Below, piece after piece: positions 5,916 to 6,563 of a stretch of 64,000 nt of DNA. Source of the stretch: an uncultured Desulfobacterales bacterium (GTDB lineage Bacteria; Desulfobacterota; Desulfobacteria; Desulfobacterales; JAHEIW01). Made by a program: the position numbers and the translations under genes. Where the stretch lies: assembly GCA_947259495.1 (NCBI GenBank), contig CAMYLV010000011.1, forward strand, positions 1 to 64,000, in the 5' to 3' direction. Each line of letters starts with the position of its first letter. The stretch's first letter is position 1. The notes beneath the pieces were generated by a model, which saw nothing but the letters and a program-made list of their open reading frames with translations, was not told the DNA's origin and ran no database searches.

Positions 5916-6016
5916 GATTGGAAATGGTTGTTAAGGTTTTGCCGGCTTCAGTTACAACTAATTGAAATAAAACAATAATTATTATTTACAACCTGTAAAA
6001 TGCGGAGGATTAAACC

Positions 6017-6244
6017 ATGCCTGAAAAAGTATTGATATTCGGCAAAGATGCCTGACCCTACACGCGGGCAGCTCGTGAAGCTTATGCCAAGGGTAATAAG
6101 GAGGTAGAATATTTCAACGTCATATCAGATCCCGACCAACTCGACACGATGCTGGAACACTCTGACGGCGTGCGCAAAGTGCCAGTGATTGTTGAAGATG
6201 GAGACGTTACTATCGGTTTTGATGGTGGCACGTGAGGGGTCTAA
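6017..6244 (+). CDS. double-selenocysteine glutaredoxin-like protein (UXX-star family)
   Basis: The frame from ATG 6017 to TAA 6242-6244 encodes 75 residues with two in-frame TGA codons, at 6053-6055 (residue 13) and 6233-6235 (residue 73). GGAGG sits eight bases before the ATG. The N-terminus reads MPEKVLIFGKDA-U-PYTRAAR. U-PYT stands where glutaredoxins have CPYC/CPYT, after a beta strand, and later KVPVIVEDGDVTIGF matches the cis-proline region of the fold. The C-terminus is GGT-U-GV-stop, the Uxx-stop tail that gives the 'UXX-star' (seleno)protein family its name. A hairpin of bacterial SECIS type follows each TGA with its loop 18 bases away. Homologues are expected to carry Cys or Sec at both sites. 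Its reductant, substrate and role are unknown to me. A decayed glutaredoxin is less likely because reading frame, motifs and hairpins are all kept. Confidence 0.85.
6056..6093 (+). promoter_or_regulatory. candidate bSECIS element for Sec13
   Basis: Immediately after TGA 6053-6055 the RNA can fold as CCCU/AGGG (6056-6059 with 6090-6093), GGC/GCC (6067-6069 with 6086-6088) and AGCU/AGCU (6070-6073 with 6079-6082). This leaves a CGUGA apical loop (6074-6078) 18 bases after the UGA. A G in the first two loop positions and a loop 16-37 bases downstream are the known requirements for SelB recognition. Confidence 0.6.
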
Positions 6245-6271
6245 TTTTTCAGCTGTAGGCTGAAAAATTAG
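6241..6271 (+). promoter_or_regulatory. candidate bSECIS element for Sec73, overlapping the stop codon
   Basis: CTAATTTTTCAGC (6241-6253) pairs perfectly over 13 bp with 6259-6271 around a UGUAG loop (6254-6258). The loop begins 18 bases after TGA 6233-6235, the same distance as for the first Sec codon, and has G at position two. The genuine stop TAA (6242-6244) lies inside the stem. The hairpin could also protect or terminate the transcript. Confidence 0.6.
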
Positions 6272-6385: not shown

Positions 6386-6449
6386 CGAGGACGAGTAGGA
6401 GTACGAGGACGATAAAACCCATCAGATTTCGTCCTCGTCGTCGTCCTCG
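6386..6449. repeat. palindrome of GAGGACGAG-type repeats
   Basis: CGAGGACGAGTAGGAGTACG and its continuation pair with TCGTCCTCGTCGTCGTCCTC near 6430-6449. A single unpaired copy of the same unit lies at 28148-28169. The rest of the 6245-6563 gap holds a GTTATTGGTTATTCGTTAAT-type low-complexity stretch and no gene. Confidence 0.5.
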
Positions 6450-6563
6450 AAAATTAAAATCACCAACTTCCTAACCCTTATTATGCCAGCAGCGGGAAGC
6501 CAGCAGCCGAAATTGTGTAACCGGAATTGAGAATCGGGTAAACTCCCAATAATACCAAACAAT

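Follow-up and report, generated by a model that had tools for sequence, protein, structure and literature searches.

The gene at positions 6017-6244 very probably encodes a double selenoprotein of UXX-star selenoprotein family 1, as judged from its sequence and from the conservation of two in-frame TGA codons among its homologues. It lies in a window (the whole stretch of DNA analysed) of 64,000 nucleotides from a Desulfobacterales genome. The double-selenocysteine form is itself already known, being listed as 'Distant Grx-like protein 1 (UXX-star selenoprotein family 1)', with a UxxT motif and 2 Sec, in Table 1 of a 2026 review (PMC13188914); the gene is therefore a new sequence and a new member of a catalogued bacterial family, not a new kind of protein. 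The features on which the following account rests are these.

6004-6008, + strand: ribosome-binding sequence GGAGG
6017-6244, + strand: UXX-star selenoprotein family 1 gene, 75 amino acids and a TAA stop
6053-6055, + strand: TGA read as Sec13, within UPYT at the glutaredoxin active-site position
6067-6088, + strand: probable SECIS for Sec13 in the coding region, GGCAGCU-CGUGA-AGCUUAUGCC, with the loop at 6074-6078, from family comparison
6233-6235, + strand: TGA read as Sec73, third residue from the C-terminus (GGT-U-GV-stop)
6241-6271, + strand: SECIS for Sec73, a 14-bp hairpin with a GUA loop at 6255-6257
6242-6244, + strand: TAA stop codon of the double-Sec gene

Reading frame and coding evidence

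A single frame runs through 6017-6244 of the forward strand up to a TAA stop; its only interruptions are the TGAs of codons 13 and 73. This is what the preliminary description had claimed, and translation with TGA as U confirms it, giving the product MPEKVLIFGKDAUPYTRAAREAYAKGNKEVEYFNVISDPDQLDTMLEHSDGVRKVPVIVEDGDVTIGFDGGTUGV followed by the stop. The same description had held that standard gene calling misses the gene, and the standard ORF listing indeed has no gene at 6017-6244. The GGAGG sequence is spaced 8 nt from the ATG, an in-frame stop is found two codons upstream of the ATG, and a similar ribosome-binding motif occurs at most 20 nt upstream in 77 of the 81 loci compared, a set made up of the gene's own locus and 80 homologous loci from other genomes.

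A two-TGA frame alone is weak evidence, because exactly two TGAs occur in each of 92 frames in the window that are 75 or more codons long; it is homology and conservation that decide. Comparison with a same-genus relative (L130) gives a dN of 0.057 and a dS of 1.07, that is, a dN/dS of about 0.05, and comparison with a second locus (L002) gives a dN of 0.095 and a dS of 0.97. Read errors at both TGA codons, which the preliminary description had named as a way in which its reading could fail, are excluded because independent genomes, including the chromosome-level assemblies CP070746 and CP070769, share the TGAs.

Family membership and conservation

The NCBIfam profile NF041114 ('UXX-star selenoprotein family 1') matches the product over its full length (positions 1-70 of 70) at 111.6 bits, where 72 is the cut-off, and the Pfam Glutaredoxin profile PF00462 matches it at 34.5 bits, where the cut-off is 22.9, in agreement with the UXX-star, glutaredoxin-like identity proposed at the outset. 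NF041114 also matches 54 of 54 aligned homologues (E <= 0.001). Haft and Tolstoy 2025 is the paper describing the family. Judged by record titles, the 80 loci from other genomes come mostly from Deltaproteobacteria (Desulfobacterota) and Nitrospirae, with a few from Acidobacteria and Firmicutes.

The UxxT motif and the two Sec of the family entry are present as U13-PYT and U73. Codon 73 is TGA in all 81 loci; at codon 13, 74 of them have TGA and the other 7 a Cys codon. Eleven further Cys13 members, drawn from the order and phylum samples, all have Sec73, and neither among the 81 loci nor among these further members was a Cys seen at position 73. The preliminary description had placed Sec at 13 (U-PYT) and at 73 (GGT-U-GV-stop) and had suggested looking for Cys or Sec there in homologues, which turn out to have Sec or Cys at the first position and Sec at the second. 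Position 16 is Thr in 80 of 81 loci, and the family consensus shows no further conserved Cys. The C-terminal layout of Sec, two residues and a stop is common to all 81 loci, here as U73-G-V-TAA. A sister form is seen in three loci (L136, L140 and L141), in which an insertion precedes the C-terminal Sec (LFGGTU or LFGRTU) and the tail that follows it is longer.

Distribution, selenocysteine machinery and neighbourhood

In the order, 78 of the 146 genomes sampled have an NF041114 match over cut-off; in the phylum the figure is 48 of 197. The genes for selenocysteine synthesis and insertion, for which the preliminary description had proposed a search, are all present in the genome itself over their cut-offs: selA (615 bits, cut-off 268), selB (358, cut-off 242), tRNA-Sec, or selC (75.2, cut-off 47), and selD (359, cut-off 125). 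The last of these (L099, G000:C2:224486-225409) has an in-frame TGA and is therefore likely a selenoprotein gene itself. Co-occurrence with Sec genes tells little in these samples, because almost every genome has them: selB is found in 133 of 146 in the order and selA in 182 of 197 in the phylum. Two genomes carry a double-TGA UXX-star gene with a reduced set of matches. One (L133, genome G179; one contig, 99% complete) has SelB and tRNA-Sec with no SelA match; the other (L135, genome G310), for which assembly contamination is possible, has none of SelA, SelB and tRNA-Sec over cut-off.

The genes ptsI and HPr stand upstream in divergent orientation in Desulfobacterales only. Among the neighbouring genes of the homologues no shared functional partner was found and no metal-resistance gene recurs; no relatives were found on viral contigs. 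Between the double-Sec gene and a gene for a PAS/GAF-type regulator, the window has an intergenic inverted-repeat-like stretch at 6386-6450, GAGGACGAG...CGTCCTCGTCGTCGTCCTCG.

SECIS elements

The hairpin at 6241-6271 overlaps the stop codon, so that the SECIS for Sec73 lies in the 3' UTR. The criteria for bacterial SECIS elements quoted in PMC13188914 are a loop of 3-9 nt, a stem of 4-16 bp, G in the first two loop positions, a spacing of 16-37 nt and a minimum free energy of <= -7.5 kcal/mol; the hairpin agrees with all of them, having a 3-nt GUA loop, a stem of 14 bp, a loop 19 nt from TGA73 and an energy of -15.9 kcal/mol (z -4.55). It is conserved in homologues: the best hairpin after TGA73 reaches <= -5 kcal/mol in 93% of loci vs 14% of shuffles, a G among the first two loop nucleotides occurs in 77 of 80 loci, and the loop mostly lies 17-20 nt from the TGA. 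Pairing is kept in 87% of cells vs 63% in shuffles, with 139 both-side changes, as counted by our own scripts on sequences whose relatedness makes the shuffle controls overstate independence. No Rfam family matched at gathering score in the window, and the SECIS calls are our own comparison. The same hairpin was also flagged as terminator-like and could therefore serve as both SECIS and terminator. Bacterial SECIS elements are located in coding regions according to PMC13188914, and in the literature searched, with the family's describing paper outside it, a 3'-UTR placement of the second SECIS was not found stated; a SECIS past the stop codon is possibly unreported so far.

The SECIS for Sec13, a weaker hairpin than that for Sec73, is probable and is supported by comparison of sequences. 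Its loop CGUGA begins 18 nt after TGA13, and the candidate hairpin, at -11.6 kcal/mol over 48 nt, comes to within 0.3 kcal/mol of the optimum; with a z of -0.55, its stability in the window does not exceed that of shuffles. The same offset together with G in the first two loop positions is found in 50 of 74 Sec13 loci vs 0 of 13 Cys13 loci (L120 was left out of the latter set), for which Fisher's test gives p 3.5e-6 with relatedness ignored.

The family shows a further peculiarity at codon 76. The gene described here stops with TAA, unlike the 40 relatives ending in TGA (L003, L011, L030 and 37 others); TAA accounts for 35 of the 81 loci and TAG for 6. Where a TGA stop follows Sec-TGA73 by two codons, the two UGAs, at a distance of 9 nt, have to be given different meanings. 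No statement on such stops was found in the literature searched, which did not take in the family's describing paper, and the use of UGA as a true stop at this distance in about half of the relatives is possibly unreported.

Predicted fold and proposed mechanism

An AlphaFold2 model built from 54 homologues (pLDDT 86, pTM 0.71) predicts a minimal glutaredoxin fold, beta-alpha-beta-alpha-beta-beta, which ends after strand 4 and the tail and lacks the last (third) glutaredoxin helix. Sec13, as part of UPYT, lies at the N-terminal end of helix 1. Among solved structures the closest are BC3987 (Z 10.1), cGrx1 (9.9) and NrdH (9.6); the alignments to solved structures stop at residues 70-71 and leave residues 72-75, Sec73 among them, without a counterpart.

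What could be the role of the two selenocysteines? SelB with Sec-tRNA-Sec very probably decodes both UGAs as Sec, with one SECIS per UGA and the second past the stop codon. In the mechanism that we propose, Sec13 would be the attacking nucleophile, and its target would be a disulfide, a peroxide or a metal or metalloid bound to thiols. Thr16 stands where the resolving Cys of a CXXC motif would be. Sec73 of the C-terminal tail would resolve the intermediate as a diselenide, or as a selenenylsulfide in Cys13 members, and a cellular thiol reductant would re-reduce the Sec13-Sec73 bond. Since Thr replaces the second active-site Cys and no other Cys is conserved, Sec73 is the sole candidate for a resolving residue, which makes a Sec13-Sec73 diselenide, and a Cys13-Sec73 selenenylsulfide elsewhere, the leading reading. 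Such a redox relay, with Sec13 attacking and Sec73 resolving, is the best account that the sequences suggest, and we hold it with about even confidence; a selenenylsulfide or diselenide relay had been suggested in the preliminary description as well. We take the gene, its family, both Sec sites, the Sec machinery, the SECIS for Sec73 and the predicted fold as shown, and the chemistry, substrate and reductant of the protein are what we infer.

The main rival takes the two Sec mainly as ligands of soft metals or metalloids (Hg, As, Cu). PMC13188914 proposes metals or unknown substrates as possible binding partners of Sec in the UXX-star family, and the complete lack of Cys at position 73 in the loci seen is stricter than usual for a resolving residue. 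A glutaredoxin fold with UPYT at the catalytic position speaks against such a role, as does the neighbourhood with its lack of recurrent metal-resistance genes, and we regard metal binding as unlikely. We think it equally doubtful that Sec13 functions in the manner of a monothiol glutaredoxin, using glutathione or some other small thiol, while Sec73 contacts a substrate or partner and forms no intramolecular bond. The near-invariant Thr16 and the PF00462 score would suit that arrangement, but absolute conservation of Sec, rather than Cys or Ser, at position 73 suggests a chemical role for it, and the protein has KVP where glutaredoxins have the glutathione-binding TVP, besides missing the third helix. 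That the locus is no selenoprotein gene, its TGAs stemming from decay of a glutaredoxin gene or from sequencing errors, has a negligible probability: its sole support is the frequency of two-TGA frames in the window, and it is refuted by the conservation of both TGAs across tens of genomes and opposed by the low dN/dS, the Sec machinery and the covarying SECIS.

Position 13 has swapped between Sec and Cys and position 73 stays Sec, so the roles of both Sec are directly testable. The gene escapes ordinary gene calling, and its family is widespread. A SECIS in the 3' UTR, combined in about half of the homologues with a UGA stop two codons past the Sec-UGA, provides natural constructs for the reach of SelB and SECIS. 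We suggest, tentatively and with well under even confidence, that these proteins might be among the smallest of the glutaredoxin fold and work through a diselenide bond within the molecule, joining the Sec of the active site to that of the C-terminal tail, with a SECIS past the stop codon recoding UGA73 and, in about half of the relatives, a second UGA two codons later still serving as a stop.

Comparison with known systems

The glutaredoxin and NrdH-like redoxins (PF00462; BC3987, NrdH, Grx3) share the fold and the active-site position. The present protein differs from them in having Thr16 for the second active-site Cys and an extra C-terminal Sec tail, and in having no third helix. It has the PF00462 domain of classical glutaredoxins, whose C-terminal third helix is absent from the predicted model. 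Its score against the NrdH profile TIGR02194 is 27.5 bits vs a cut-off of 85.75, and the cut-off of the Grx3 equivalog is likewise not reached. The selenoprotein glutaredoxin cGrx1 of Clostridium oremlandii shares with the present protein a Sec at the glutaredoxin nucleophile position (PMC13188914); its UxxC motif contains the resolving Cys, whereas here a second Sec stands at the C-terminus. UXX-star families 2 and 3 and the HUGP/GUXX-star fusion (NF041211, NF047338 and NF045501) have related profiles and a C-terminal Sec motif, and the protein scores 49.5, 43.3 and 41 bits against them, far under their cut-offs. With UXX-star selenoprotein family 1 (NF041114) it shares the full-length profile, the UxxT motif, the two Sec and the C-terminal UXX-stop, and it shows no difference from that family that matters.
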